DNA of 64,000 nucleotides, from NCBI GenBank assembly GCA_000158135.1, contig DS999531.1, positions 1,803,485 through 1,867,484 of the forward strand, given 5' to 3'. This document shows positions 29,375 to 47,531 of the stretch, in pieces. Below the pieces are notes generated by a model that made no database searches, was not told where the DNA came from, and saw only the letters and a program-made list of their open reading frames with translations. Both the position numbers and the translations under genes were made by a program. The DNA comes from Rhodobacteraceae bacterium KLH11 (GTDB taxonomy: Bacteria > Pseudomonadota > Alphaproteobacteria > Rhodobacterales > Rhodobacteraceae). Position 1 is the stretch's first letter; every line of letters starts with the position of its first letter.

Positions 29375-31048
29375 ATGGATACGATCCAAGAGATTTTCTT
29401 TCTGCCACCCATGGCGGTTGCCCGGCTGGGGCCGGGTGAGACGCCGCTGGAAAGCTATGAGTGGCAACAGGACATGGATGCCCATGGCAACAACAAGACG
29501 GTCATCCGGTCGAACATAACTCTGCGAGAGGTCGAAGATGGCAGTGTTACTGCCTACCTTCCCGATCCCGACACGATCCGCTTTCGCGACGAAGGCGGCG
29601 CGCTGCGCCCGGTCGCGCCGTTCTTTGAGCTGTGGGCGCGGATGCATGACGCCGAGACGGGCGAGGAATATGAGACGCCAGTGACGCTCGATCTGCTTGA
29701 GGGTCAGGGCCTTTCGCTGCAAAACCTGCGCTACTCAGTCACCGTCGGGAACACCAAGGCCGAGCGTCGCACGGGGGATGCCGCCTGCGGGTTTCGCGCC
29801 CGGGTCGAGATTGCGGGGCAGGATTTCACCCCCAAGCCCCTGCTGGCCTTCAGCCCCTATACCTCCGAACAGCAGCCGATGGTCTATGAGCACAACCCGA
29901 TCCCGCTGGGCGCGATCCGTGTGATGCACCCGGTGCAAGGCTATGATGAGCCGGTCGACGGAGAGTTCATCGACCGCAGCATCCTGCGCCTGCGCTTTAT
30001 GCCGCCCAAAGGTGAGGTTTATGGGCCACCAGATGCGGCTTATGGCCCGGCGACATTGGCTGTGCCGGGATACCAGAACGATCCGCCGAAATCGGAATAT
30101 GGCCGTATCCATGAAATCGTGCCCGAACAGAACCGCATCCTGAACCCTGACACCCCATGGTCGAAATGGATCATGATGTCCGGCACCTCGGACGACCCCG
30201 AGCCGCATGACAGCTATGATGGTGCCCGCGTCGGCAATGACCAATCATGGGGCGTGGCCGATGATACCAGCGACGGCGTGATCGAGGCGACGCTGGCGGT
30301 GCGCGGCGAGCGTCTGACCGCGCGCGCGACGATCATGACCGGACCACCCGATTTCGCGCCGGATGCGCGGCCGTTCTACAGCCTTGAGGATGATCTGGCC
30401 GACCGTGATCTGTCGCTGATCTCGGTGACCGAAGACAATTACCAACACGCCAAGACCGAGGTGGTCGACATCTTCCGCCGCGCGTTTGAGACCAACAGCT
30501 TGATCAACCTCGACGATATCCGGGCGCAGGGCCTGAAGGACAACGCCAAGCTGCAGGCAAAAACCGGGGTCCCCGCGACGCCGGGTCTGCCATCAACCGA
30601 TGCGAAATCCATGACGGAAGAGGACGCAAGGCCGCCCGACAAGATCGACGAACTGATCCGCCCGCAGCCGATCTCGGTCTTTTCCAACTCGGTGCCCAAT
30701 GACCGGCTGCCCTATACGGTGGCCACGAAATTCGTGCATGAGCAGTTGATTGACGAGGCGAACCTGCTGGATTTCCTGCGCCGCCGCCCGGATTTCGTGA
30801 AAACGCTGCTGCGTCCGCCCTATGGTATCCTGACCGAGCTTGAGACCAACCCGAATCCCGATCAGGCCCCGAACCCGGTTTTTCGCGATCCGCGCATCAT
30901 CCGCGATTCGATGCACGACGCGCGGATGCCGCCCTATATGCGCGATTCCAACTATTACCCGCTGTCCCTGTCGCGCAGGCAGTACCATCTGGTGATCTCG
31001 TTCATCGACTATCTGGTTGCACAGGAATCGGAGGCTCAGAATGTCTGA
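29375..31048 (+). CDS. LodA N-terminal-domain-like protein
   Basis: The protein has 557 residues and no signal peptide. The first 350 residues follow the beta-rich N-terminal layout of LodA/GoxA quinoprotein oxidases: PPMAVARLGPG near the start (compare the HPAIGIARVG type), TIRFRDEGGALRPVAPFFELW around residue 68, and TGPPDFAPDARP near 325. Only one Cys occurs, near residue 132, and no Cys/Trp cofactor motif is present, so it cannot form the CTQ cofactor alone. The last 200 residues are Pro-rich and charged and I do not recognise them. It overlaps the next gene, which carries the matching C-terminal motif, by 8 bases. The split-LodA reading is inference. Confidence 0.6.
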   Translation: MDTIQEIFFLPPMAVARLGPGETPLESYEWQQDMDAHGNNKTVIRSNITLREVEDGSVTAYLPDPDTIRFRDEGGALRPVAPFFELWARMHDAETGEEYETPVTLDLLEGQGLSLQNLRYSVTVGNTKAERRTGDAACGFRARVEIAGQDFTPKPLLAFSPYTSEQQPMVYEHNPIPLGAIRVMHPVQGYDEPVDGEFIDRSILRLRFMPPKGEVYGPPDAAYGPATLAVPGYQNDPPKSEYGRIHEIVPEQNRILNPDTPWSKWIMMSGTSDDPEPHDSYDGARVGNDQSWGVADDTSDGVIEATLAVRGERLTARATIMTGPPDFAPDARPFYSLEDDLADRDLSLISVTEDNYQHAKTEVVDIFRRAFETNSLINLDDIRAQGLKDNAKLQAKTGVPATPGLPSTDAKSMTEEDARPPDKIDELIRPQPISVFSNSVPNDRLPYTVATKFVHEQLIDEANLLDFLRRRPDFVKTLLRPPYGILTELETNPNPDQAPNPVFRDPRIIRDSMHDARMPPYMRDSNYYPLSLSRRQYHLVISFIDYLVAQESEAQNV

Positions 31049-32801
31049 TCAACCCGGCCCAATCCGCATCACACCCCGCAACCTGACCGCCCGCGCGGCC
31101 TATAAGGTGCCGGGCAATCCCGACAACACGCGTCTGGACGGATCGGTAGGCAATTGCTTTCCGGGTCTGGAAATGGACGTGCGCAACCTCGACCGGCGCT
31201 TCTTTCCCGGTCTGGTGTTCAACGCGGTGCGTGTGCCGCTGAGCCCGGTGCCCGAGGCGCCGAAGAATTCGCAGGGCTTCCATCTGGTCTTTGTTGATTA
31301 TTTCTACGACCCGATGCTACCCGACAACAGCCCTGAAGACTGGGTGCAGACATTGCTAGAGGCGTATAGCGGCGACATCGGCGCAAAACTCAGCCAGGGG
31401 CGCTGGTTCCTGTCATGGGTTGAACAAAGCGGCAAGCGCATCACTTTCGAGGAGGAAGACGGCACTCCCTATGATGGGCTGATGATCTGGCGGTTTATCC
31501 GCAGTCTGGAACATGGCGATGACAAACCGGTCAGCATTGCTCTGGAACGGCGCAATCATGAAGGCATCGTGGATACCGAGCAGGTCGTCTTGCATGGTTT
31601 CCGCCGCCAGTACCGGACCGAAGCGGGCGTGTTCAGCGAGGCTTACGATCCCGGCGAACTGACGCAAAGCCTGTGCAACCCGTGGTCCCATGATTTCCGC
31701 GACTGTGGCTGCCACTATTGGCCCTCGAACCATCCCGATGTGGTGATGGCTGAGGTGGCGCATGATGACCAGCTGCCCTCGGGCCAGTCGAAGAACCCGA
31801 TCGAGGCCGAGACCTATCTGGATTGGCTGCGCTCAGACAAATCTCCGTCCGGCAACGTCGCGGCGCTGAATACGGTGGAACAGAACCGCCCCTATCAGAT
31901 CGACCACTATCAGGTGAACCAGATGTGGAGCGAGCTGCCCATCGTGGTTGAAGGCCGCGAAACCGGCGAGGTCTATGAGGTCGACCCCGAACTGCCGGGC
32001 GTCGCGCCCTATGACACGCCCGAGGCGATGATCGAGGACCTCAAGACCCGTCTGGCCGCGATGGAGATGACGCTGAGCCTGCAATATCTCTATGCCTATT
32101 TCTCGCTGGCCGATCCTGAGACGGTGGATACCAGGAAATGGCCGACGTTGAAGGATGATCTGATCTTCGCCCGCCGCTCGGTTCTGGAGGTCGCGATTGG
32201 CGAGATGACCCATATGCGCTGGGCGAACCAGTTGCTGTGGGAACTTGAACCCGGCGCTTATGAGCCCGTGCTGACGCCCTCTGAAACCCTGCCGGCGGGC
32301 AAGGGCAAGACACAGCCCCGCGCGCTGCGTCCCCTGACCGCCGAGGCACTTGCGGATTTCATCGAGATCGAGCGCCCCGGCGGCACCATCGACCGCGCCT
32401 ATGCGCAATGCGTGGCGACGCTGGAGCAAGAGGAGTTGTTCCCCGAACGCCGCCTCTATGCGCTGGCCGTGCGGATTGACACCGACGGGGATGAGCATTT
32501 TCTGCGCTTCAGCCAGATGAAGGACGTTCTGGCCAAATATGACAGGGGCGAGGGCACCCCGGCCTACTTGCGCCAGATCGAGGTCGGAACCGAGGCGCAG
32601 GCCAAAACGGCGCTGGACCTGTATGCCAAGGTCAGGGAGGGGCTTGCCAAAGCCTACACCCTTGAGGCCGAGGGACAGTTCGAAGAGTCCCAGACCTATA
32701 TCCAGCAGGTGCGCGATGACATGAAACTGTTCCGGGTCGAGGGCGAGGCGCTGGCCGCCAAAGGGATCGGCATTCCGTTCTGGACGGAGGGCACGGTGTG
32801 A
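31041..32801 (+). CDS. LodA C-terminal-like domain fused to VioB-type ferritin-like domain
   Basis: The protein has 586 residues. Residues 1-260 resemble the catalytic half of LodA/GoxA oxidases: GSVGNCFPGLEMDVRNLDRR near residue 33, and LCNPWSHDFRDCGCHYWPS with Cys212, Cys222, Cys224, Trp215 and Trp227, which corresponds to the Cys/Trp region that forms cysteine tryptophylquinone. Residues 325-500 match the ferritin-like domain of iminophenylpyruvate dimer synthases (VioB/RebD): EMTLSLQYLYAYFS, a GEMTHMRWANQLLW ExxH helix and DGDEHFLRF. The start at 31041 follows CGGAGG. The fusion of a quinoprotein-like domain and a metal-binding four-helix domain is unusual. I infer an oxidative enzyme whose Trp is modified by the next two gene products. 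Confidence 0.7.
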   Translation: MSDQPGPIRITPRNLTARAAYKVPGNPDNTRLDGSVGNCFPGLEMDVRNLDRRFFPGLVFNAVRVPLSPVPEAPKNSQGFHLVFVDYFYDPMLPDNSPEDWVQTLLEAYSGDIGAKLSQGRWFLSWVEQSGKRITFEEEDGTPYDGLMIWRFIRSLEHGDDKPVSIALERRNHEGIVDTEQVVLHGFRRQYRTEAGVFSEAYDPGELTQSLCNPWSHDFRDCGCHYWPSNHPDVVMAEVAHDDQLPSGQSKNPIEAETYLDWLRSDKSPSGNVAALNTVEQNRPYQIDHYQVNQMWSELPIVVEGRETGEVYEVDPELPGVAPYDTPEAMIEDLKTRLAAMEMTLSLQYLYAYFSLADPETVDTRKWPTLKDDLIFARRSVLEVAIGEMTHMRWANQLLWELEPGAYEPVLTPSETLPAGKGKTQPRALRPLTAEALADFIEIERPGGTIDRAYAQCVATLEQEELFPERRLYALAVRIDTDGDEHFLRFSQMKDVLAKYDRGEGTPAYLRQIEVGTEAQAKTALDLYAKVREGLAKAYTLEAEGQFEESQTYIQQVRDDMKLFRVEGEALAAKGIGIPFWTEGTV

Positions 32802-34108
32802 TCCCACCCGCCGCGCAGGTGCATTTCTTCGACACCGATCAGGGAGATCACATGCTGGCCGTTGACGGCTCGCGCGTGTTCGATGTGCCTGCGGGAACGG
32901 CAGGTCGGTTTGCTGCCATGGACGAGCCCGGCCAAAGCGCTTTTCTCAGGTCAATGGGGCTGGATGGCACCCCGTTCATTAATGACACCCCACCGCAGAA
33001 CATGCCCGTGCGTTCGCTGTCGCTGGCCGTGGCGCAGAAATGCAATCTGGCCTGCACCTATTGCTACGCCGCGGGCGGAGAGTTTGGCGGCCCTGCGCGG
33101 AATATGGAGTGGGAGGTTGCCAAAGCCTCGGTCGATCGGCTGGTGGCCGAGGCTGAGCCGGGCGTGCGCATAAACCTCGCCTTTCTGGGCGGAGAGCCGC
33201 TGATCAACCGCGATCTGGTGCAGCGCACGACGGAGTATGCGGTGGAGCAAGCGCAGGCCAACGGGTTGAGCGTCGGGTTTTCGATCACCACCAACGGCAC
33301 CTTGCTGCGCCCCGAGGACGCCGCGTTTTTTGAGGCACATGGTTTTGCCGTCACGATCAGCCTGGATGGCGTGGGCAAGGTCCATGACAGGTTGCGCCCC
33401 AATCGCGGTGGGCGGGGCAGTTTTGATACGATCCTGAAACGGGTCGCGCCCTTGCTGGCCGCCCAGCACCGCATGCAGGTCGGAGCCCGGGTGACGGTGA
33501 CCCCGCAGAACTTGAACCTGCCCGAGACGCTGGAGCAGTTTGTCGGGATGGGGTTTCACTCGGTCGGCTTCTCACCGATGCTGGCCTCGCCCGACGGCCA
33601 GCATGAGCTGGACCGGGGCAATCTGGCCGAAATGCTGACGCAGATGATCCACTGTGGTGAGGTGTTCGAGGCGGCGGTGATCGACGGGCGGCGCTATCCG
33701 TTCTCGAACATGGCTGCGGCGATGCAGGAAATCCATCGCGGTACACACCGCCCTTATGCCTGCGGGGCAGGGGGCGGATATTTCGGCGTATCCGCCGATG
33801 GCGGGCTTTTTGCGTGCCACCGTTTTGTCGAGGACGAGGCAGGCGCCATGGGCGACGTCTATGACGGCCCCGATCTGCGGCGCGAAAACTGGCTGGCGGA
33901 TCGTCACGTGCACACGCAATCCCCCTGCACCACCTGCTGGGCGCGCTATCTGTGCGGCGGTGGCTGTCATCACGAGGTCATTCATCGCGGACGCCCCGCC
34001 TGTGATTACATTCGCGGCTGGCTGCACTATTGCCTGCAGGCCTATGTTCGCCTGTCCGAGGCACGCCCGGATTATTTCGGGACGCCCGCGCAGGTGGTCT
34101 CTGCCTGA
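32798..34108 (+). CDS. radical SAM/SPASM protein-modifying maturase (QhpD-like type)
   Basis: The protein has 436 residues. Radical SAM ligands are Cys82, Cys86 and Cys89 (CNLACTYCYA), followed by FLGGEPLIN and SITTNGTLL. The C-terminal SPASM region has further Cys clusters (CTTCWARYLCGGGCHHE, then CDYIRGWLHYC) for two auxiliary [4Fe-4S] clusters. This architecture belongs to peptide and protein maturases such as QhpD, which makes thioether bonds in the CTQ subunit of quinohemoprotein amine dehydrogenase. The GTG start overlaps the previous stop and has GGAGG 7 bases upstream. The likely target is the Cys-rich segment of the protein encoded just upstream. Confidence 0.85.
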   Translation: MIPPAAQVHFFDTDQGDHMLAVDGSRVFDVPAGTAGRFAAMDEPGQSAFLRSMGLDGTPFINDTPPQNMPVRSLSLAVAQKCNLACTYCYAAGGEFGGPARNMEWEVAKASVDRLVAEAEPGVRINLAFLGGEPLINRDLVQRTTEYAVEQAQANGLSVGFSITTNGTLLRPEDAAFFEAHGFAVTISLDGVGKVHDRLRPNRGGRGSFDTILKRVAPLLAAQHRMQVGARVTVTPQNLNLPETLEQFVGMGFHSVGFSPMLASPDGQHELDRGNLAEMLTQMIHCGEVFEAAVIDGRRYPFSNMAAAMQEIHRGTHRPYACGAGGGYFGVSADGGLFACHRFVEDEAGAMGDVYDGPDLRRENWLADRHVHTQSPCTTCWARYLCGGGCHHEVIHRGRPACDYIRGWLHYCLQAYVRLSEARPDYFGTPAQVVSA

Positions 34109-34112
34109 TCAG

Positions 34113-35561
34113 ATGACGACAGAAACCGAAATCTGTGTGATCGGGGGTGGCCCGGCCGGGGCGGCCACCGCGCTAAGGCTGGCGCAGCTTGGGCGGCAGG
34201 TATGTCTGCTGGAGCGTGCGGCTTTCCCGCGTCAACATGTCGGGGAATCGCTGCCCCCTTCGATCTGGCCAGTGCTTCAACTGCTGGGCGTGGATGACCT
34301 TGTTGCGCAGGCGGGTTTTTTGCGGGCGACGGGTTCTGTTCTGCACTGGGGCGGCGGGTTTGAGCGTCGTGGGAGGAACTCTACCCGCCCCGGGCTACTG
34401 GTTGACCGGGGGCGTTTTGATGCGCTGTTGCTGCAAGCCGCTGCGGCGGCGGGTGTGCAGGTGCCGCAACCCGCGCGCGCCTATCGCCCGGTGCGTCACG
34501 GCGATGGTTGGAAAATTCCGGTGCATTCGAGCGCCGGGCATCATGCCATCACGGCGCAGATACTGGTGGACGCGGCGGGCAGGCAGGCCGGGCTGGGGCG
34601 CCGGTTCCGGCCAACCTCCAAACCGTTGCTGGCGCTTTATGCCTATTGGCAGGTACCACCGGGTTTTGGCGCGCAGGCGCGGGTCGAGGCAGGGCGCGCG
34701 CATTGGTATTGGGGCGCGCTATTGCCGGGCGGTGTGGTCAACGCCATGGTCTTTGTCGACCCCGCAACCTGCACCGGGCTGTCCCCTGCAGCGCGTCGCG
34801 ACCTTTATCTGAACCTGCTGGCCCAATCGACGCTGCTATCCCCGTGTCTGGAGCAACGCCGGATCGGCCCGGTCCGCCGCAGTGACGCGACCAGCCTGAC
34901 CGAAACGACGCGTCCGGCCCCTGATCTGCTGCGGGTGGGTGAGGCCGCTTTCACGGTCGATCCGCTGTCATCCCAGGGGGTGCAGCTCTCGATGGGGCAG
35001 GCTGTGCAGGCTGCCGTTGTGCTCAACACCATTCTGAACAGCCCTGAAAAGGGTGATCTGGCACTGTCGTTCTATGCCGATCGGCAGGCCGAGCGGGTGC
35101 AGACCCACGCCGCGCTGGCTGCCGGGTTCTATGCAAAGCAACAGGCGATCACCCCGGCCCCCTTCTGGGCCAACCGATCCACGCCGTTGGAGCCGGGGCG
35201 CACCGCCCAGCCTGATCTCAATCCGGACGAATTGCGCAGCGATCAGCTGGTGCATCTGTCCCCGCTGACCAGCCTGCAGGTCTCGGGTGTTCAGAGTGCA
35301 ACCCGGATCGAAGCGGCCCCGGTTCTGACGCATCCGAACTTGCCGCGCCCTGTTGCGTGTCTGGAAGGCACGCCGCTTGCGCCCCTGTTGCAGCGGCTGG
35401 AGGGCCGGGCAACCGTCGGCCAGATCAGGCAGCGTTGGTCGGATATGCTGGGGCCCGAGCACGCGATGCGGCTGGTGCACTGGCTCTGGCATCACCGGAT
35501 TCTGGTTCCGGCTGGCGAAAGCGATGTAATCCCGGTTTCCTCTGCCCGCCGAATGACATAA
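34113..35561 (+). CDS. LodB/QhpG-like FAD monooxygenase with PqqD-like C-terminal domain
   Basis: The protein has 482 residues. Residues 1-360 are a flavin monooxygenase/halogenase-like domain: IGGGPAGAATALRLAQLG (about 8-25), RQHVGESLPPSIWPVLQLLG, and a second FAD contact at VGEAAFTVDPLSSQGVQLS. LodB and QhpG are of this type and install oxygen on the cofactor Trp. The last 80 residues (CLEGTPLAPLLQRLEG, then VHWLWHHRILVP) look like a PqqD/RRE winged helix, which in other systems binds a precursor peptide. The frame reaches back to 33756, inside the radical SAM gene, but the ATG at 34113 opens the FAD domain. Last gene of the operon. Confidence 0.8.
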   Translation: MTTETEICVIGGGPAGAATALRLAQLGRQVCLLERAAFPRQHVGESLPPSIWPVLQLLGVDDLVAQAGFLRATGSVLHWGGGFERRGRNSTRPGLLVDRGRFDALLLQAAAAAGVQVPQPARAYRPVRHGDGWKIPVHSSAGHHAITAQILVDAAGRQAGLGRRFRPTSKPLLALYAYWQVPPGFGAQARVEAGRAHWYWGALLPGGVVNAMVFVDPATCTGLSPAARRDLYLNLLAQSTLLSPCLEQRRIGPVRRSDATSLTETTRPAPDLLRVGEAAFTVDPLSSQGVQLSMGQAVQAAVVLNTILNSPEKGDLALSFYADRQAERVQTHAALAAGFYAKQQAITPAPFWANRSTPLEPGRTAQPDLNPDELRSDQLVHLSPLTSLQVSGVQSATRIEAAPVLTHPNLPRPVACLEGTPLAPLLQRLEGRATVGQIRQRWSDMLGPEHAMRLVHWLWHHRILVPAGESDVIPVSSARRMT

Positions 35562-38350: not shown

Positions 38351-38680
38351 ATGGAAGTTACAACAGTAGGTCTGGATCTCGGTAAGGACGTTTTCCAAGT
38401 TCATGGAATTTCCGCCAACGGTACGGTTGTTTTCAAGCGGTCGGTCCAGCGCAAACAATTGCTCACGTTTTCCGAGACGCTTCCAAGCTGTCTTGTCGGA
38501 ATAGAGGCCTACGGGTCGGCCCATCATTGGGCGCGTGAATTGAGCGCCATCGGTCACGACGTGCGCCTGATGCTTACCATTTACGTGAAGCCATACGTCA
38601 AACGCGGCAAGACCGACGCGGTTGATACCGAGGCAATCTGCGAAGCACAGCACAGACCCGCAAACCCCCGTTATGAATGA
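38351..38680 (+). pseudogene. truncated IS110-family transposase
   Basis: Only the N-terminal DEDD part remains, about 100 of the usual 340 residues: VGLDLGKDVFQVHG, GIEAYGSAHHWARELSAIGH and VKRGKTDAVDTEAICEA. After EAICEA the frame turns to unrelated residues and stops; the transposase_20 half with its catalytic Ser is missing. It is related to, but clearly different from, the intact copy at 57863, so it is an older, separate insertion. AGGAAAGAAG precedes the ATG. Confidence 0.88.
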
Positions 38681-39461: not shown

Positions 39462-39518
39462 GTTATGCTTCCCATAGTTGTATTGTAAAAAAGTTAATCA
39501 ATCTTGGGAGTATATCCA

Positions 39519-42500
39519 ATGTATTACCTGTCTGAGCAGCAAGTCAATCAACTCCGTGCCGTAGTGAGCAACGAGAATGCCGCAAACCCATATGCGGACA
39601 TGTATGATTTGATTTCAGGATTTCTGCAGTCTTCCGACGATTTTGGGACGGCGGCGACCGGGAACGTAAAGGCATGGTTCGGCGCTGCAGGCCAAGCAAA
39701 CCGAGGCACCGGCGGCGCCTCAGACCTCATTAGAACTTACACTCAAACTCAGCTTGAGATACGTACCGGGCAAAGCATCAGCAACATTGAAGGTGTTCTT
39801 CAGCAGGCTTCTGACGACATAGCAGTTGCCGTTCTCGGGGATATTGAAGACGCGCGAACCGTAATCAACGGTGAGACTTACTATGCACTGCCCAGCGTCC
39901 GACAAATTGGAGTACAGGATGCGCTCGCATCACTGGACGCTCTGTCTTCGTATTCCAACAATCTTGCGGTTTGGTCTGGCAACATCCTGTTTCTGGGACT
40001 GGGCGAAGGAGAGTTCTGGTACGATAATATTCTCGAAACTGATGGGGATACTTACGATCTTTTTGCGTCCGTTAAGTCATTGATAGCTGGTGGGGTCGGC
40101 TCTTTGCTTAGCGGTACAGCAAGCGATTTGATCGGTCTTCAGTGGGATCAAGGCGTAGATGGAATACAGGAGGCGGCGCAGGTTACGGTTGCTGGTGTTT
40201 CTGCGGCCAACGACTTTTTTGTTAAAGCCTATGGAGGATTGTCGGGAGCAAGCAGCTTAGCCACAATGGCCAATCTCCTAACAACAGAAATCATAGTGGG
40301 CTCCGAATCTGCTGATTACAATTTAGAACAAAGTCTGGAGGCTCCAGCAAATACCTTCATCCACGCGGGCGGGGGCAACGACGACATCGTTGGGTCGACC
40401 GGTAATGATCTTATTGATGGCGGCACAGGTGATGACTTGGTGTCATTTGTACCCCTTACCACGACAGATATCGAACTCGTGGCAACTATCGATTATGTTA
40501 ACACTAAAGCCGATTTCTCTGCGTTTGTTGACACGGGTGGAGAAGAGCGAACTGCAATTTTCAATGTTGAGCAACTGTCACTTGGTTTGAATGACGACAC
40601 GCTTATCATATCTGACCTAAGTCACGTTGTTACATCACTCGATTCCGTTCACGGATCAGAAGAAGACACTGCTGGGGATACCATTGACTTGTCGTCAGTA
40701 GTAGGAATAGGCGCGGATGTGTCCCTTGAGGGTGAGACCGTTTCTCTGAAGAACGACGCAAAAGTTCTCGAAATCATTGATTTCGAAAACGTCATTGGTT
40801 CAAATTTTGATGACAATATAGTCGGTGACGATCAAGATAATACTATCGAAGGCGGTGAGGGTATTGACCAAATCGACGGTCTGGGTGGCGCGGACATCCT
40901 ACGTGGGATGGAAGGCGACGATGTCATCGATGGCGGTGCGCCAGTTGGACAGGGCAGTGATGAGGAAGCCGACCGGATAGAGGGCGGGTCTGGCAACGAC
41001 ACAATTTCGATCCACGCAGGCGAAGCTTATGGTCAGGCGGGTAATGATAGCATTTCCACTCTCGACACTGGTGCAACTGGTTCGAATGGAGATTCACCGA
41101 CGGTGCAAGCCTATGGCGGCTCAGGAAACGACATGCTCGATGCACGGGGATCGACTGGCGAGCACTTCCTTTCCGGCGGCAGTGGCGATGATGTTCTTTA
41201 TGGAAACGGAAGCAGCACCATCAGCGCGGGTTCAGGCGCTGACACAGTACATCTTATAACCGGCGACACGCTCGCGGATCGGTTGACGTCTGAGGACGAG
41301 CTCTATGTCGATGGAGTCAGAATATCAGGCCAACTTACGGACAATGGACTACATCATCCGTCTTCCGAAGGATCCGGTTTTTTTTGGGGTTATGCGGTTA
41401 AGCCTCAGGTTCATTCAGGCGGAGAGTTTGCCCTTTCCCTTGAGCCTGAGCGGGCTGCATCTGCGAATAATTTCGCCGTATTTTTCGAAATGAACGAAGA
41501 GCAGGAAGACTTCGATGATACGCTCAGTTCGGTATCATATACCGCCTATATCGTGTCAAACCCTGGCGCGCTTGACGTTGAGTACAGTCCAATTACTGGC
41601 GATTGGTCGGTTCCCCGTCAAATGGTTCTGGACAATGCGGTCGTCATCTCGGATTTCCGCCCCGGTGATTTTGGGTTGATGGAAGCGGTTTCGAATGAGT
41701 ATTTCTACGACAATCGCACAGATGACAGCACTTATTATCGGAAAACCCTGAGAAACATTGAAATCAACGATGAGAACCCTGCTGCGAATAATCTAGAGCT
41801 TGGTGACCCGGCCCCCTATGACGAAGACGATCTGCGTGCCGAGGCTGAGTTTGAGGAAATCACCGAGGCTTTCTCTGACGAGTGGCTTGACGCCCAATCA
41901 GGTGCCGCCGGTACCACAGGAACAGACGACAACGATCTATTTGTGGGTTCCGAACCTTTGACGTCAGGTGGTCTGGGTCGCGATTTCTTTGTACTGAATG
42001 CCGTGGCGAACGTCGCGAGCGGAGGCGCAGATGCTGATTTCATGGTCGGCTCTGCGGGCAATGATACGCTGAATGGCGATTCCGGCAATGATCGGATTTT
42101 TGGCGACGCAGCACCTGGAACAGAGTTCTTTGCCACATTCGACGATCCAACAGTCAGCGACGACGATAACCTGTTTGGCGGAACTGGAGACGACATAGTC
42201 TACGGTGGCCGGGGAGATGATCTTATTGAAGGTAACGAAGACAACGACCTTCTGTTTGGTGAAGACGGCAACGACACGCTTCGAGGTGGCCATGGAATTG
42301 ACCGTCTCGAAGGCGGTGCCGGTTCGGATGAACTGTCTGGCGGCGACGGTGCAGATGAATTGACCGGCGGTACTGGGAATGACACGCTGAACGGCGGCGC
42401 TGGTGAAGACATCTTTGCGTTCAAAACCGGAGACGGGCAGGATGTCATTTCTGATTTCGACCCCGCAAATGATACTATCCATATCAATGGCGATGTGCTT

Positions 42501-45500
42501 GATCCGACAGTCCCCACATCTGGCATTACGTTGATTGAGCAAGGCGATAATGTCCTGATCACCTATGGGTCAAACGACACGATTCTGGTTGAGAACTTAT
42601 CTATCGAAGAGTGGGCCGGATTTTTGCCCAACGCTGGAGACGACACCCTCACTGGAACGTCAGAGCGCGACAAAATCTATGGCGGTGCTGGAAACGATAC
42701 GATTCAGGGGCTCGGTGGAAATGACCTAATTTATGGCAGTTTCGGCGACGACCTGATTGACGGCGGCGAGGGTCATGATGATCTCTATGGCGGTGCGGGA
42801 AATGATCGAATTCTTGGGAATTCTGGAGGAGATTATTTTGATGGTGGCGACGGAATTGATACTATCGACTTCTCTTTGTTCAGCACTAATTTCAACATCG
42901 ACCTGTCCCAATCCAAAGCTGTTCATGAAGGTGGTTTCACTGAGCAGGTGCGAAACTTCGAAAACATTATCGGAGGCTCGGGCAACAACAATTTGACGGG
43001 CAATGTTGGGGCCAATGTTCTTCAAGGCCTGGCCGGCAACGATACCTTCACTACTGGGGCCGGCAACGATACCATTCGCGTTGAAGGCGGAGCTGGTGCA
43101 GATACAGTAACCGACTTTGACATCAACAACGATCTAATTGAAATTGATGGCGTAGCTCTTAATCCAAATAGCGTTCCAACGGGGATCAGCATTACACAAA
43201 ACGGCGCAGATGTGACCATTTCTTATGGAGCTGGTGACACGCTTACCTTGAGTGGAATCGCTCTTTCAGCATGGCAGATCGCAACGAATGTGAAAGCCGT
43301 GGAAGATACTGCAATGGTGCTTGAAGATGGCACTGTTTTGATCGACGTACTCGCCAATGATAGTGATGTCGATGGAGATGCCCTGACCATTACCTCTGTT
43401 TCAGGAGTATTGAATGGAACAGTTAGTATTGAAGATGGACAAATCCGATACACACCGGATGCTAATTTTCATGGAAGTGAGACTCTGATCTACACAGTTG
43501 ATGATGGAAACGGTGCGTCCGACACCGCGACCATAACCATCACGGTAACGCCGGATAATGACAATCCGGTTGCCTCAGATGAAGTCGCCAGTGTGACTGA
43601 GGATGGCACGGTTCTGATCGATGTCCTTACCAACGACAATGATGTGGAAGGAGATGTTCTGACGATCACGTCCGTCACCGGTGCATTAAATGGTTCGGCA
43701 AGCATCGAGGATGGCCAGATCCGCTACACGCCCAATGTCGATTTCCATGGAAGTGAGACATTGACCTATACAGTCGATGACGGAAACGGCGGAACTGATA
43801 CGGCAACCGTGACTGTCACTGTAGCGGCAGAAAACGATGCACCAATTGCCGCGGATGACTCTGTTTCTGTGGTGGAGGACGGCACGATCATGATCGATGT
43901 CCTCGCCAATGATGGAGATGTCGATGGTGATCAGTTGACGATCAGTGATGTTTCGGGCGCAGTCAACGGTGTGGCGATTATAGAAGGCGGACAGATTCGT
44001 TATACGCCGAACGCGAACTTTAACGGCAGCGAGACGTTGACCTACGTAGTCGATGATGGAAACGGAGAAACACACACCGCAAGTGTGACCGTAACCGTAA
44101 CGGCTGAGAATGATGACCCAACGGCCGTTGATGACATCGTTGCTGTGGACGAAAGTGTTGCGGTTGTGATCGATGTTCTTGGCAACGACGGTGATGTTGA
44201 AGGTCATACTCTCAGCATAACCGAGATAGACGGGCAATCCGTGTTTGTCGGGTCTGTAGTGACGCTAAGCTCTGGAGCGTCTGTTGAACTGATGCCGGAC
44301 AACAGTCTGCGGTTTGAACAGAATGGTGCCTTTACCGCCTTAAACGACGGCGAAACCGCTCAGGAAGCCGTTACCTACACGGTCAGTGACGGCAATGGTG
44401 GCAGCGCGACTGCTGTCGCGAACATTACCATCTCTGGTCGCGGCACCGCTCCGACGCCCATAGGCGAAAGTGGAACGGTTTCGGTCGCTCAAACGGGTCC
44501 CGATCAGTGGCACAGCGTTTCGTTTTCGGCAGCTATCAGCAACGCGGTGGTCGTTCTGGGGCCAGTAACAAACGTGGATGGCGACCCGGTGACGACGCGT
44601 GTCAGGAACGTCACGGACACTGGCTTTGAATTCCAGATTGATGAATGGGATTACCTTGATGGGATTCATGGCCTCGAAAGCCTCGGTTGGCTTGCGGTTT
44701 CGGCCGGGACGCATGAACTGGAGTCTGGCCAAAAGATTGTGGCCGGAACAGCTTCGGTCTCGACCGGCTTCACACAACTGAACTACGGTGAGACCCTGGT
44801 AAATCCAATCTTGTTCTCGGAGGTCACATCCGTGAATGAAACGGATGCAGTTACAACCCGAATGCGGAACGTAACCAACACCGGGTTCCAGGCACAGATC
44901 GAAGAACAGGAAAGCGGCGGAGCGCATATTGCGGAAACTGTTTCCTGGATTGCGCTCGAAAGCGGGGCGGGTGCCGGGTTTGAAGCCTTCCGTACAGCGG
45001 ATCAGCTGGACGAAAGGGTAGACCGGTTTGATTTTACAACCTCGTTTGCGTCGGCTCCCGTACTTCTAGCGGATATGCAAAGCACAGATGGTGGAGACAC
45101 TTCAACTGTGCGAATGCAGAGCCTGGATGCGACAGGTGTGTCCTTATTTGTAGCTGAAGAGCAATCCAAGAACGTGGAGGTCGGTCACACCAACGAAACC
45201 GCTGGAATCCTTGCACTTTCTGGGGGCCTTCTTTTCGCAGGGGGTGCAACCGCAAATACGGCTCCTGATGCCGTTGACGACAGTATCACCGTAGCAGAAG
45301 ACGGCACGGTTCTGATCGACATTTTGGCCAATGACAGTGATGCGGACGGCGATGTAGTCGTGATCACTGACGTATCAGGTGCAACGAACGGAACGGCAAG
45401 CGCTGAGGATGGTCAAATCCGCTATACGCCCAATGCCAACTTCCATGGGAGCGAGACATTGACCTATACGGTTGATGATGGAAACGGTGGAACTGACACA

Positions 45501-47531
45501 GCGACAGTGACCGTCACTGTTGTACCAGAAAAAGATGCACCAATTGCCGCAGATGACTCGGCTTATGTAGTGGAGGACGGCACGATCTTGATTGATGTCC
45601 TCGTCAACGACAGTGACATTGATGGTGATGCCCTGACCATCACTTCTGTGGCGAGTGCTCTTAACGGGACGGCCGTAATTGAAGATGGTCAAATCCGGTA
45701 CACACCGAATGCCGACTTCAATGGCAGTGAAACACTGACCTATACGGTCGATGACGGAAACGGCGAAACAGATTCCGCCATGGTCACGATTTCTGTAGCA
45801 CCAGAGAATGATGCCCCTGGGGCGGTGGACGATACCGCCAGTCTGGCAAGTGATGGCACCATTCTGATTGATGTGCTCGCCAATGATGGAGATATCGATG
45901 GAGACACCTTGACCATCTCGGGTGTGACGGGTGCATCAAATGGCGCTGCCGTGATTGAAAACGGCCAGATCCGCTATACGCCCAATGCTGGCTTCTCTGG
46001 CGAGGAAACACTGACCTATGCGGTCGAAGATGGCAACGGAGGCGCCGATACTGCAACGGTCACTGTTACCGTCACATCGGGCAACGAAGCGCCGGTCGCA
46101 GTTGACGACACAGCGAACCTGGATGAGGACGGCACAATCCTGATCGATGTTTTGGCTAATGACAGTGATGCGGATGGCAACACGCTTACGATCACTGAGG
46201 TGACTGGTGCTGCAAACGGTACGGCCGTCGTCGAAGCGGGCCAGATCCGTTACACGCCAGCCAGCGGCTTCAGTGGGACTGATACGATCCACTATACTGT
46301 GTCCGATGGGGCTGGCGGAACTGCGTCCGCATCGGTCGCAATCCAAGTCAATTCTGCACCAACAGGCGCTCCTATCGTCGTGGACGACTATGTTACGATT
46401 GTCAGCGGCGGCACCGTTCTGATCGACGCGCTTGCCAATGACAGCGATCCCGAAGGCGGGCAGATCTATATCTCCAGCGTCGCTCCCACGATTGCCAAAG
46501 GCATTCAGTTTGTCGATGGCAAGGTCCAATATGAAGCTCTGGACAATTACACAGGTGTTGTCGAGATGGACTACACAGTGTCGGACTTTGATGGAAACAG
46601 CACCACGGGCACGGTGTTCATCGACATCGTTGCACCAAACACCGGTCCAATCGCAAATAACGACACGGCATCGCTTACTGAAAATGAATCTGTTCTGATT
46701 GATGTCTTGGCAAACGATGATGCAGGTGGTGGAACACTCATCATTGCATCTATCACAGCCGCTCTGAACGGTACTGCTGTGATTGAGAATGGGCAAATCC
46801 GCTATACTCCGAACACTGACTTCAGCGGCTCAGATACGATCAGTTATACCATCTCCGATGGCAATGGTGGCGAGGCGACCGCTTCTGTGCAGATCGATGT
46901 GGCAGAACTGATCGACGGTGCACCAATCGTCGTTGACGACTATGTAACGGTAGAAAGTGGTGGGACGATCCTGATTGACGCTTTGGCGAACGACAGTGAC
47001 CCGAATGGCGACGGCATCTACATCTCAAGCATTTCCCCTACCATCGCACAAAGCCTTCAGTTCGTGAATGGTCAGATCCAGTATGAGGCGCTGGCCAACT
47101 ACACTGGTGTCGTCGAGATGGTCTACACCGTAACCGACTATGGTGGAATCAGTTCAACAGGCTCGGTGTTCATTGATGTTGTCGCGCCAGGCAGCATCCC
47201 ACCACCGGCTGCTGCGTCGACCGGAGCACCCAACGAGATATTAGGCACGCTTGGCGATGATGTGCTCAGTAGCACCGAGGCTGATGAGGTTCTGACGGGC
47301 GGTGCTGGCGCCGATACCTTTGTCTTCAATGCGCTCGAAGCGGAAGGGGCCGACCATATATCGGATTTCGAGTTGGGGGTTGATACAATCGAAATGGCAG
47401 GGACCACCTATGCTGATCTGACCTTCGCCGATACGGGCACGGGTACGCGCGTGGAGTGGGATAATGGCTCTGTAGAGCTCGATAACATCGATATTGCATC
47501 ACTGACTGAAGACCAGTTCCTGTTTGCTTAA
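39519..47531 (+). CDS. giant RTX/tandem-repeat secreted protein (type I secretion)
   Basis: The protein has 2670 residues, acidic, with no N-terminal signal peptide. Residues 1-270 are an unrecognised helical region. Calcium-binding RTX blocks (GGxGxDxL type, for example GGTGDDLVSF and GGAGNDTI) lie near 280-310, 430-590, 800-970 and 1040-1195. Eleven cadherin-like repeats of the VLIDVLANDSDVDGD type lie at about 1260-1640 and 1915-2560. Between them, about 1650-1910, is a three-fold repeat built on TRxRNVTxTGFxxQIxE. A last RTX segment (GGAGADTFVF) and a DQFLFA end suggest a type I secretion signal. It is probably a surface adhesin. No ABC exporter or TolC gene is nearby. RBS TGGGAG precedes ATG 39519. 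Confidence 0.9.
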   Translation: MYYLSEQQVNQLRAVVSNENAANPYADMYDLISGFLQSSDDFGTAATGNVKAWFGAAGQANRGTGGASDLIRTYTQTQLEIRTGQSISNIEGVLQQASDDIAVAVLGDIEDARTVINGETYYALPSVRQIGVQDALASLDALSSYSNNLAVWSGNILFLGLGEGEFWYDNILETDGDTYDLFASVKSLIAGGVGSLLSGTASDLIGLQWDQGVDGIQEAAQVTVAGVSAANDFFVKAYGGLSGASSLATMANLLTTEIIVGSESADYNLEQSLEAPANTFIHAGGGNDDIVGSTGNDLIDGGTGDDLVSFVPLTTTDIELVATIDYVNTKADFSAFVDTGGEERTAIFNVEQLSLGLNDDTLIISDLSHVVTSLDSVHGSEEDTAGDTIDLSSVVGIGADVSLEGETVSLKNDAKVLEIIDFENVIGSNFDDNIVGDDQDNTIEGGEGIDQIDGLGGADILRGMEGDDVIDGGAPVGQGSDEEADRIEGGSGNDTISIHAGEAYGQAGNDSISTLDTGATGSNGDSPTVQAYGGSGNDMLDARGSTGEHFLSGGSGDDVLYGNGSSTISAGSGADTVHLITGDTLADRLTSEDELYVDGVRISGQLTDNGLHHPSSEGSGFFWGYAVKPQVHSGGEFALSLEPERAASANNFAVFFEMNEEQEDFDDTLSSVSYTAYIVSNPGALDVEYSPITGDWSVPRQMVLDNAVVISDFRPGDFGLMEAVSNEYFYDNRTDDSTYYRKTLRNIEINDENPAANNLELGDPAPYDEDDLRAEAEFEEITEAFSDEWLDAQSGAAGTTGTDDNDLFVGSEPLTSGGLGRDFFVLNAVANVASGGADADFMVGSAGNDTLNGDSGNDRIFGDAAPGTEFFATFDDPTVSDDDNLFGGTGDDIVYGGRGDDLIEGNEDNDLLFGEDGNDTLRGGHGIDRLEGGAGSDELSGGDGADELTGGTGNDTLNGGAGEDIFAFKTGDGQDVISDFDPANDTIHINGDVLDPTVPTSGITLIEQGDNVLITYGSNDTILVENLSIEEWAGFLPNAGDDTLTGTSERDKIYGGAGNDTIQGLGGNDLIYGSFGDDLIDGGEGHDDLYGGAGNDRILGNSGGDYFDGGDGIDTIDFSLFSTNFNIDLSQSKAVHEGGFTEQVRNFENIIGGSGNNNLTGNVGANVLQGLAGNDTFTTGAGNDTIRVEGGAGADTVTDFDINNDLIEIDGVALNPNSVPTGISITQNGADVTISYGAGDTLTLSGIALSAWQIATNVKAVEDTAMVLEDGTVLIDVLANDSDVDGDALTITSVSGVLNGTVSIEDGQIRYTPDANFHGSETLIYTVDDGNGASDTATITITVTPDNDNPVASDEVASVTEDGTVLIDVLTNDNDVEGDVLTITSVTGALNGSASIEDGQIRYTPNVDFHGSETLTYTVDDGNGGTDTATVTVTVAAENDAPIAADDSVSVVEDGTIMIDVLANDGDVDGDQLTISDVSGAVNGVAIIEGGQIRYTPNANFNGSETLTYVVDDGNGETHTASVTVTVTAENDDPTAVDDIVAVDESVAVVIDVLGNDGDVEGHTLSITEIDGQSVFVGSVVTLSSGASVELMPDNSLRFEQNGAFTALNDGETAQEAVTYTVSDGNGGSATAVANITISGRGTAPTPIGESGTVSVAQTGPDQWHSVSFSAAISNAVVVLGPVTNVDGDPVTTRVRNVTDTGFEFQIDEWDYLDGIHGLESLGWLAVSAGTHELESGQKIVAGTASVSTGFTQLNYGETLVNPILFSEVTSVNETDAVTTRMRNVTNTGFQAQIEEQESGGAHIAETVSWIALESGAGAGFEAFRTADQLDERVDRFDFTTSFASAPVLLADMQSTDGGDTSTVRMQSLDATGVSLFVAEEQSKNVEVGHTNETAGILALSGGLLFAGGATANTAPDAVDDSITVAEDGTVLIDILANDSDADGDVVVITDVSGATNGTASAEDGQIRYTPNANFHGSETLTYTVDDGNGGTDTATVTVTVVPEKDAPIAADDSAYVVEDGTILIDVLVNDSDIDGDALTITSVASALNGTAVIEDGQIRYTPNADFNGSETLTYTVDDGNGETDSAMVTISVAPENDAPGAVDDTASLASDGTILIDVLANDGDIDGDTLTISGVTGASNGAAVIENGQIRYTPNAGFSGEETLTYAVEDGNGGADTATVTVTVTSGNEAPVAVDDTANLDEDGTILIDVLANDSDADGNTLTITEVTGAANGTAVVEAGQIRYTPASGFSGTDTIHYTVSDGAGGTASASVAIQVNSAPTGAPIVVDDYVTIVSGGTVLIDALANDSDPEGGQIYISSVAPTIAKGIQFVDGKVQYEALDNYTGVVEMDYTVSDFDGNSTTGTVFIDIVAPNTGPIANNDTASLTENESVLIDVLANDDAGGGTLIIASITAALNGTAVIENGQIRYTPNTDFSGSDTISYTISDGNGGEATASVQIDVAELIDGAPIVVDDYVTVESGGTILIDALANDSDPNGDGIYISSISPTIAQSLQFVNGQIQYEALANYTGVVEMVYTVTDYGGISSTGSVFIDVVAPGSIPPPAAASTGAPNEILGTLGDDVLSSTEADEVLTGGAGADTFVFNALEAEGADHISDFELGVDTIEMAGTTYADLTFADTGTGTRVEWDNGSVELDNIDIASLTEDQFLFA

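Follow-up and report, generated by a model that had tools for sequence, protein, structure and literature searches.

A split LodA-type protein encoded with QhpD-like and QhpG-type maturases in Rhodobacteraceae bacterium KLH11: a probable cysteine tryptophylquinone oxidase

One question raised by a locus of Rhodobacteraceae bacterium KLH11 is how a LodA-like protein would be matured when it is encoded together with both a radical SAM enzyme and a flavoprotein. LodA and the gamma subunit of quinohemoprotein amine dehydrogenase (QHNDH) carry the same cofactor, cysteine tryptophylquinone (CTQ), which is made without a radical SAM enzyme beside the flavoprotein in the first case and with one in the second. 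The locus lies in a stretch of 64,000 nucleotides of contig DS999531.1 (assembly GCA_000158135.1, positions 1,803,485 to 1,867,484), hereafter the window. Four of its proteins are in the focus here (Table 1): N and C, the putative halves of the target, S, the radical SAM enzyme, and F, the flavoprotein; residue numbers such as C39, C212, C222 and W227 are positions within the C protein (P0002). A preliminary description of this DNA had placed three of the reading frames (31041-32801, 32798-34108 and 34113-35561) and residues C222, C224 and W227 correctly, and had proposed a possible new Trp-derived cofactor. With a probability of about 0.72, we favour the reading that the product of the operon is an oxidase of amines or amino acids with CTQ as cofactor and the LodA fold, which is split into N and C and matured in the style of QHNDH. 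It would represent a third class of CTQ enzyme.

On the basis of profile comparison and modelling, N and C are predicted to form a LodA-type fold that is split over two overlapping genes. As single sequences both remained below the family cut-offs, N with 16.6 of 26.3 bits for LodA_N and 18.2 of 600 bits for LodA, and C with a match of its residues 199-234 to LodA_C at E 0.001 (19.3 bits, cut-off 25 bits); membership of the LodA family is not reached with these three models, and significance comes from profile-profile comparison only. With hhalign, the N family (15 proteins) matched seven LodA-like proteins at E 1.8e-17 over 366 columns, and the C family matched the C-terminal part of seven LodA-like proteins at E 1.4e-7 in 100 columns that surround the cofactor site. 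Moreover, natural fusions of N and C into a single gene exist in a Ruegeria (L027, 7306-10737) and in a metagenome-assembled genome of the Polyangia (L041, 7369-10701). The AlphaFold model of the Ruegeria fusion (1143 aa) reached a predicted template modelling score (pTM) of 0.85, and all its 31 Foldseek matches in the PDB at E<=0.001 were LodA or GoxA entries, followed by the ferritin-like protein 3hl1; the superposition on LodA/GoxA was loose (TM-score 0.22-0.44 by target length, root mean square deviation 7.8-18 Å). The model of C alone, in which the CTQ loop is unmodelled, gave ferritin-like chains and no LodA among the best 50 Foldseek matches listed. Since the gene that precedes C corresponds to the N-terminal part of LodA, the LodA unit comprises two genes. 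The single target described before does carry the proposed site, yet it represents only half of the unit, and the N gene at 29375-31048 had been overlooked, as had the ferritin-like domain of C and the berberine-type oxidase gene ahead of N.

The proposed cofactor site lies in the DCGCHYW segment of C, which holds C222, C224 and W227. In the profile alignment D218 falls on LodA D512 and C222 on LodA C516, while W227 is aligned with LodA W581 via a shared WP block. Hence, the CTQ Cys and Trp and the active-site Asp of the LodA/GoxA family are all present in C at aligned positions. As controls we used 11 LodA-like proteins from 11 genomes, which matched LodA_C within a sample of 349 genomes; aligned with the two natural fusions, all 11 keep the CTQ Cys, Asp and Trp. 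None of them has a Cys in the columns of C212 and C224, and an Asp in the column of D233 occurs in two. The F-x-PG-x-E block of the controls is aligned by MAFFT with N-C39-F-PG-L-E44 of the C protein, again with no Cys at the position of C39 in any of the 11. Hence, three cysteines (C39, C212 and C224) that are present in the C family and absent from all controls go with the radical SAM gene. A scan of the surroundings (approximately 12 kb) of seven of the 11 control genes showed an adjacent flavoprotein gene of the same superfamily in all seven and an adjacent QhpD-like radical SAM gene in none. Near the control L128 a SPASM protein (97 bits) is encoded approximately 3.5 kb away. The distance between the CTQ Cys and Trp is 65 residues in LodA and 5 in C, and it is also 5 in the control L129 (4979-7354), a LodA-like protein with an Asp at the D233 position, no extra Cys and no adjacent QhpD-like gene, which possibly represents an intermediate.

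The additional residues resemble QhpC, the gamma subunit of QHNDH. This subunit is reported to contain the thioethers Cys7-Glu16, Cys27-Asp33 and Cys41-Asp49 beside the CTQ from Cys37 and Trp43 (PMC8172795, PMC7876137). QhpC from five loci showed C-x5-D-x3-C-x3-C-W-W-x5-D following a PGWE block, with the consensus C..DPGWE.D...LCQPMEADLYGC[AS]DPCWWPAQV.D. Its pairs and CTQ residues have counterparts of the same order in C, namely C39-E44, C212-D218, C222/W227 and C224-D233, and three steps are identical (+6 for Cys27-Asp33, +6 for Trp43-Asp49 and +4 for Asp33-Cys37). The model of the QhpC gamma subunit gave C only 12.9 of 50 bits. No QhpC over the cut-off was found in the host genome (4.49 Mb, the scope of all own-genome searches below), where the highest-scoring match below it falls on the Cys-rich segment of C itself. 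The earlier view that the Cys-rich segment is the site of crosslinking and quinone formation is thus retained as a prediction. The new Trp-derived cofactor is a different matter, because C222, W227 and D218 fall on LodA C516, W581 and D512 and the other residues repeat the QhpC pairs. Ordinary CTQ together with staples of the QhpC type is enough to explain why these Cys, Asp/Glu and Trp are conserved, therefore a new cofactor is not needed, and new chemistry was set aside as the default.

Conservation was read from two alignments. The less biased one contains 17 C proteins (from the window, one genome relative and 15 plasmid loci) and goes back to tblastn searches with C and N against plasmids and to whole-protein genome searches. 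Its plasmid loci came from the tblastn with C as bait, in which 15 of 20 plasmid records were taken (H20 matched over the motif only); H9, H10, H12 and H15 were left out as having the same species names as taken records, and H19 as covering the ferritin part only. The search with N as bait recovered all 15 as well; from it 16 plasmid loci were taken, 15 of them with the C motif. C212, D218, C222, C224, Y226, W227 and D233 are kept in all 17 proteins, thus the conservation test of C222/C224/W227 that had been proposed earlier was passed. E44 is likewise present in 17 of 17, and C39 in 14. The second alignment draws on a scan of GTDB contigs with motif-derived patterns, which gave 214 relatives, of which the best 80 were kept; it comprises 51 of the 78 C proteins with scores above 380 bits. 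Here the motif of residues 212-233 is found in 51/51, a count that, like the other genome-contig counts for these residues, is partly circular because the loci were found with motif patterns. C39 (50/51) and E44 (51/51) lie outside the search patterns. A C protein is encoded in 97 loci, the window included, and the strict motif pattern fits 87 of them; among the ten misfits, seven have the motif with another residue between the two Cys, L061 and L068 have it in broken frames, and L099 ends inside it.

Co-occurrence was counted in 74 well-covered loci with at least 4.5 kb on either side of C, including the window and near-copies (several Ruegeria) that were not collapsed. A gene for S is present within 6 kb of C in all 74, and the flavoprotein in 72, of which 43 score at least 200 bits and 29 are diverged or weaker; it was not found in L068 and L086. 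N lies near C in 70 of the 74, the exceptions being the fusions L027 and L041 and the broken loci L061 and L068. Three gene orders recur: oxidase-N-C-S-F (type 1), N-S-C followed by a diverged flavoprotein (type 2), and a separate ferritin-like gene followed by N, a short C, S and F (type 3). Together with the profile matches below, these counts, which go beyond chance, bear out the earlier observation: next to a LodA-like target lie genes for both kinds of maturase, a QhpD-like radical SAM enzyme and a flavoprotein. By record title, the 80 kept relatives, many of them metagenome bins, belong to Pseudomonadota (53), Actinomycetota (11), Cyanobacteriota (9), Acidobacteriota (4), Planctomycetota (2) and Myxococcota (1). 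The C family is sparse: one genome out of 289 sampled from the class and two out of 198 sampled from the taxonomic family carry it, the own genome of the window included. The host genome looks like a Ruegeria, as the C protein is 95% identical (best segment) to its counterparts in R. conchae and R. halocynthiae. Annotated plasmid records label N and C as hypothetical or ferritin-like proteins. A decayed locus was seen on an Azospirillum argentinense plasmid (L012, 8001-10228), where N and a shortened radical SAM gene stand beside an IS3 transposase; the C protein was not found at this locus and has been lost near the IS3 element.

Regarding the maturases, the best match of S among 73 families was QhpD (TIGR03906, 1.3e-91, 307.6 bits), followed by the PapB/SCIFF ranthipeptide maturase profile with 269.9 of 340 bits. 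The CxxxCxxC and C-terminal Cys patterns of S resemble those of QhpD from four loci; in a quick tree the outgroup sat on very long branches, which leaves the membership of S undecided. F, which had been called LodB-like, passes the NCBIfam QhpG model NF049967 (323.6 bits, cut-off 240) and stays far below the LodB (138.9 of 400 bits) and GoxB (125.6 of 400 bits) models, so that by profile the former name does not fit. Its closest solved chains are the halogenase 8zop (3.8e-31) and 7ctq, a 'peptidyl tryptophan dihydroxylase' (5.2e-31). The flavoproteins of N-S-C loci L066-L098 are shorter, give 25-92 bits or no match with the type-1 model and were found with a profile of their own; owing to this divergence, hydroxylation may work differently there. 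In the own genome there is no QhpC over the cut-off and no LodA_C match at E<=1e-5, and the second-best QhpD match reaches only 78 bits. C is the only evident target of the two maturases. QHNDH itself was set aside, with no QhpC over the cut-off in the genome. QhpA, QhpB, QhpE and QhpF were not noticed in the operon, for which no dedicated search was made. A separate small precursor for the radical SAM enzyme was rejected, as there is no room between the overlapping genes; small open reading frames elsewhere were not searched.

By analogy with the biochemistry of QHNDH and LodA, the following sequence of events may be proposed. The QhpD-like enzyme would crosslink C212-D218, C224-D233 and probably C39-E44 as Cys-to-Asp/Glu thioethers. 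The QhpG-type flavoprotein would then bind the stapled segment and dihydroxylate W227, and oxidation plus the attack of C222 would yield CTQ, over which the N protein would close the active site. More speculatively, the mature enzyme would deaminate an amine or amino acid and pass the electrons to O2 to form H2O2, which the fused ferritin-like domain could destroy or use, again a speculative step. What the sequences themselves show is the kinship in fold, the conserved residues, the co-occurrence of the genes and the presence of the extra Cys where a radical SAM gene is present.

The ferritin-like domain of C matches PF12902 with 45.6 bits (cut-off 22.3), and with Foldseek it matches the Caulobacter ferritin-like protein 3hl1. 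Its candidate metal ligands E342, E388xxH391, E444 and H486 are kept in 51/51 proteins of the second alignment, and position 483 is Gly, where a canonical ExxH would presumably place Glu. The score of C in the VioB equivalog model is 14.2 of 1250 bits. In the nine type-3 loci aligned, C lacks this fused domain. Fusions of LodA-like proteins with catalase-fold or iron redox domains have been described, and fungal lodA genes adjoin PF12902 genes (PMC4417212). A role of the domain in handling peroxide is a speculation from such analogies. It would also fit the peroxidase genes seen near some N-S-C loci: DyP-type and peroxidase-family annotated genes (L005, 12717-17577), a gene with a DyP C-terminal domain (L006, 3715-4983) and a weak vanadium-chloroperoxidase-like match (L007, 2118-3464).

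Several observations weigh against a CTQ enzyme with QHNDH-style maturation. S stays below the QhpD cut-off of 453 bits, and QhpD is described as requiring a leader peptide (PMC7876137). At the operon no leader peptide was identified, and no profile search was aimed at one. In a quick tree of 39 flavoproteins, F of the window stands on the LodB rather than the QhpG side with an SH-aLRT (approximate likelihood ratio test) support of 90, below the mark of 95; this tree has long branches and splits the flavoproteins of the C family over several of them, and it does not decide membership. Moreover, divergence is very strong among the type-2 flavoproteins. When a mixed alignment with a natural fusion at its head was compared with LodA, the match was confined to the C part (E 3e-7), and the CTQ loop is modelled poorly, with a predicted local distance difference test (pLDDT) value below 50 in C alone and of 59-79 per ten-residue block in the fusion. 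C39 is absent in 3 of the 17 proteins. The spacings of C and QhpC differ for C39-E44 (5/9), C224-D233 (9/8) and C222-W227 (5/6), the hhalign comparison of the C family with QhpC was not significant (E 0.37, probability 0.2), and the comparison of LodA-like proteins with QhpC (E 6e-4, probability 28.6) matches the WWPAQxP block with the Cys in another register. Because the profile comparisons are non-significant or in another Cys register, the link to QhpC is one at the level of motifs. Finally, the control L129 has an equally short Cys-Trp spacing without the extra Cys; hence, the idea that the short spacing results from the staples was dropped.

It might also be that the cofactor is related to CTQ and not CTQ itself, with the quinone Trp crosslinked to C224 or with the invariant Y226 involved. 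C224 lies 3 and C222 5 residues before W227, compared with 6 residues between Cys37 and Trp43 of QhpC, and Y226, a position taken by W or F in the 11 controls and by W in QhpC, is kept in 17/17 and 51/51 proteins of the two alignments. We regard this as improbable, since the profile alignment places D218 on LodA D512 and C222 on LodA C516, and CTQ plus thioethers accounts for the remaining motif. Slightly less probable still is an ordinary LodA-type CTQ made by the flavoprotein alone, with the radical SAM enzyme acting elsewhere or making structural staples only. Such a maturation has precedents in LodA and GoxA, described with the LodB or GoxB flavoprotein and no radical SAM enzyme (PMC7876137, PMC4417212), and would agree with the place of F on the LodB side of the quick tree (SH-aLRT 90); it does not sit well with the radical SAM gene in 74/74 loci, with extra Cys that are seen together with this gene and in 0/11 controls, and with the score of F as QhpG, whose known substrate is a stapled protein.

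The LodA part could, furthermore, be a relic beside a ferritin-like domain that works like VioB/RebD as an oxidative coupling enzyme and makes a natural product together with the berberine oxidase. The PF12902 domain over the cut-off fits this proposal, as does the stand-alone ferritin-like protein of the type-3 locus L009, which matches VioB with 55.7 bits. However, the invariant CTQ-site residues in the 17-protein alignment, the unfused ferritin domain in the nine type-3 loci and the low VioB score of C make it very improbable. Beyond the CTQ oxidase favoured here, a more far-reaching version may be formulated: a third class of tryptophylquinone enzymes, with an ancestral quinone core common to LodA and the QHNDH gamma subunit, three staples that shape a LodA-type site, and a ferritin-like centre that uses the quinone-made H2O2 for a second oxidation, so that a single pair of proteins would act as a two-step oxidative catalyst. 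This version is doubtful at present, if less so than the three alternatives above.

Table 1. Genes, motifs and domains of the operon in the window, with the roles proposed for them
Feature	Position	Strand	Evidence
SAM domain + class III nucleotide cyclase + AAA_16 + TPR protein, 1107 aa	24323..27646	+	Pfam
Berberine-type FAD-linked oxidase, 521 aa	27770..29335	+	PF01565 5.4e-28, PF08031 3.9e-10
N, predicted N half of the split LodA-type enzyme, 557 aa	29375..31048	+	family profile hhalign
C, predicted LodA-type C half with fused ferritin-like domain, 586 aa; proposed CTQ bearer	31041..32801	+	
CFPGLE, residues 39-44 of C; proposed thioether pair C39-E44	31155..31172	+	MAFFT alignment, conservation
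CNPWSHDFRDCGCHYWPSNHPD, residues 212-233 of C; proposed thioethers C212-D218 and C224-D233, proposed CTQ from C222/W227	31674..31739	+	
Ferritin-like domain, residues 340-498 of C	32058..32534	+	PF12902 9.9e-12
S, QhpD-like SPASM radical SAM protein, 436 aa, GTG start; proposed thioether former	32798..34108	+	
F, QhpG-type flavoprotein, 482 aa; proposed Trp dihydroxylase	34113..35561	+	NF049967

The six genes are closely packed on one strand. The berberine-type oxidase gene ends 39 nt upstream of N, the genes for N and C overlap by 8 nt and those for C and S by 4 nt, and 4 nt separate S and F. A berberine-type oxidase is encoded near C in 32 of the 74 well-covered loci. The protein encoded first in the row may serve the cluster as a sensor or regulator; a homologue occurs beside 32 of 42 loci with a berberine-type oxidase (the window included), in 12 cases just upstream on the same strand and in 20 downstream, 19 of these on the opposite strand. 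Downstream of the operon, a short open reading frame (38351-38680) looks by eye like the start of an IS110-type transposase and is perhaps a transposon remnant, and 39504-47531 encodes a repetitive protein of 2675 aa with GGxGxD-type and VCBS/cadherin-like repeats by eye and the look of a secreted adhesin. Genes for C25-family cysteine peptidases were seen near rhizobial plasmid loci (L009, 2054-3577; L005, 10887-12431); processing of the target, or else of a secreted product, is a conceivable role.

Compared with LodA, the operon has in common the fold of N plus C, by profile and model, the CTQ Cys and Trp with the active-site Asp, and a flavoprotein maturase gene. It differs in the division of the enzyme into two genes, so that the single polypeptide of LodA is not found in the window, in three extra Cys, the radical SAM gene and the fused ferritin-like domain, in the Cys-Trp spacing of 5 instead of 65 residues (shared by the control L129), and in a flavoprotein that is nearer to QhpG by profile score. 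With QHNDH (QhpABC plus QhpD/E/F/G) it shares the QhpD-like radical SAM enzyme and the QhpG-type flavoprotein as well as, at motif level, the ordered Cys/Glu-Asp pairs and the Cys/Trp of QhpC, whereas the target is a large LodA-fold protein instead of a 9-kDa gamma subunit. The PF12902 proteins of the VioB/RebD type and Caulobacter CC_0557 (3hl1) have the same four-helix ferritin-like domain with E, ExxH, E and H; in C this domain is fused to the quinone-site domain, Gly replaces the last Glu, and the VioB model stays far below its cut-off. PapB/SCIFF ranthipeptide maturases belong to the same SPASM subfamily as S, and PapB reportedly forms thioethers between Cys and Asp (PMC8172795), but the target of S would be a large enzyme and not a small peptide.

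In the open-access literature, with most subscription papers outside its coverage, no paper was recognised in which a radical SAM gene is connected with a LodA-type protein, in agreement with the initial remark that no described system with this set was known. A 2015 survey of LodA-like genes collected its sequences by BLASTP at 1e-10, and the term 'radical SAM' is absent from its main text (PMC4417212). What is new is the combination: a split LodA fold with QhpC-like crosslink residues and a fused ferritin-like domain, encoded beside maturases of the QHNDH type. Since the family unites the fold of LodA with a residue pattern like that of QhpC and with the two kinds of QHNDH maturase, it would link LodA and QHNDH. 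If the proposed maturation is true, one could test directly whether a Trp is made ready for QhpG-type dihydroxylation by thioether staples, and the range of QhpD-like chemistry would come to include large enzymes, with candidate oxidases in loci that belong, by record title, to six phyla.

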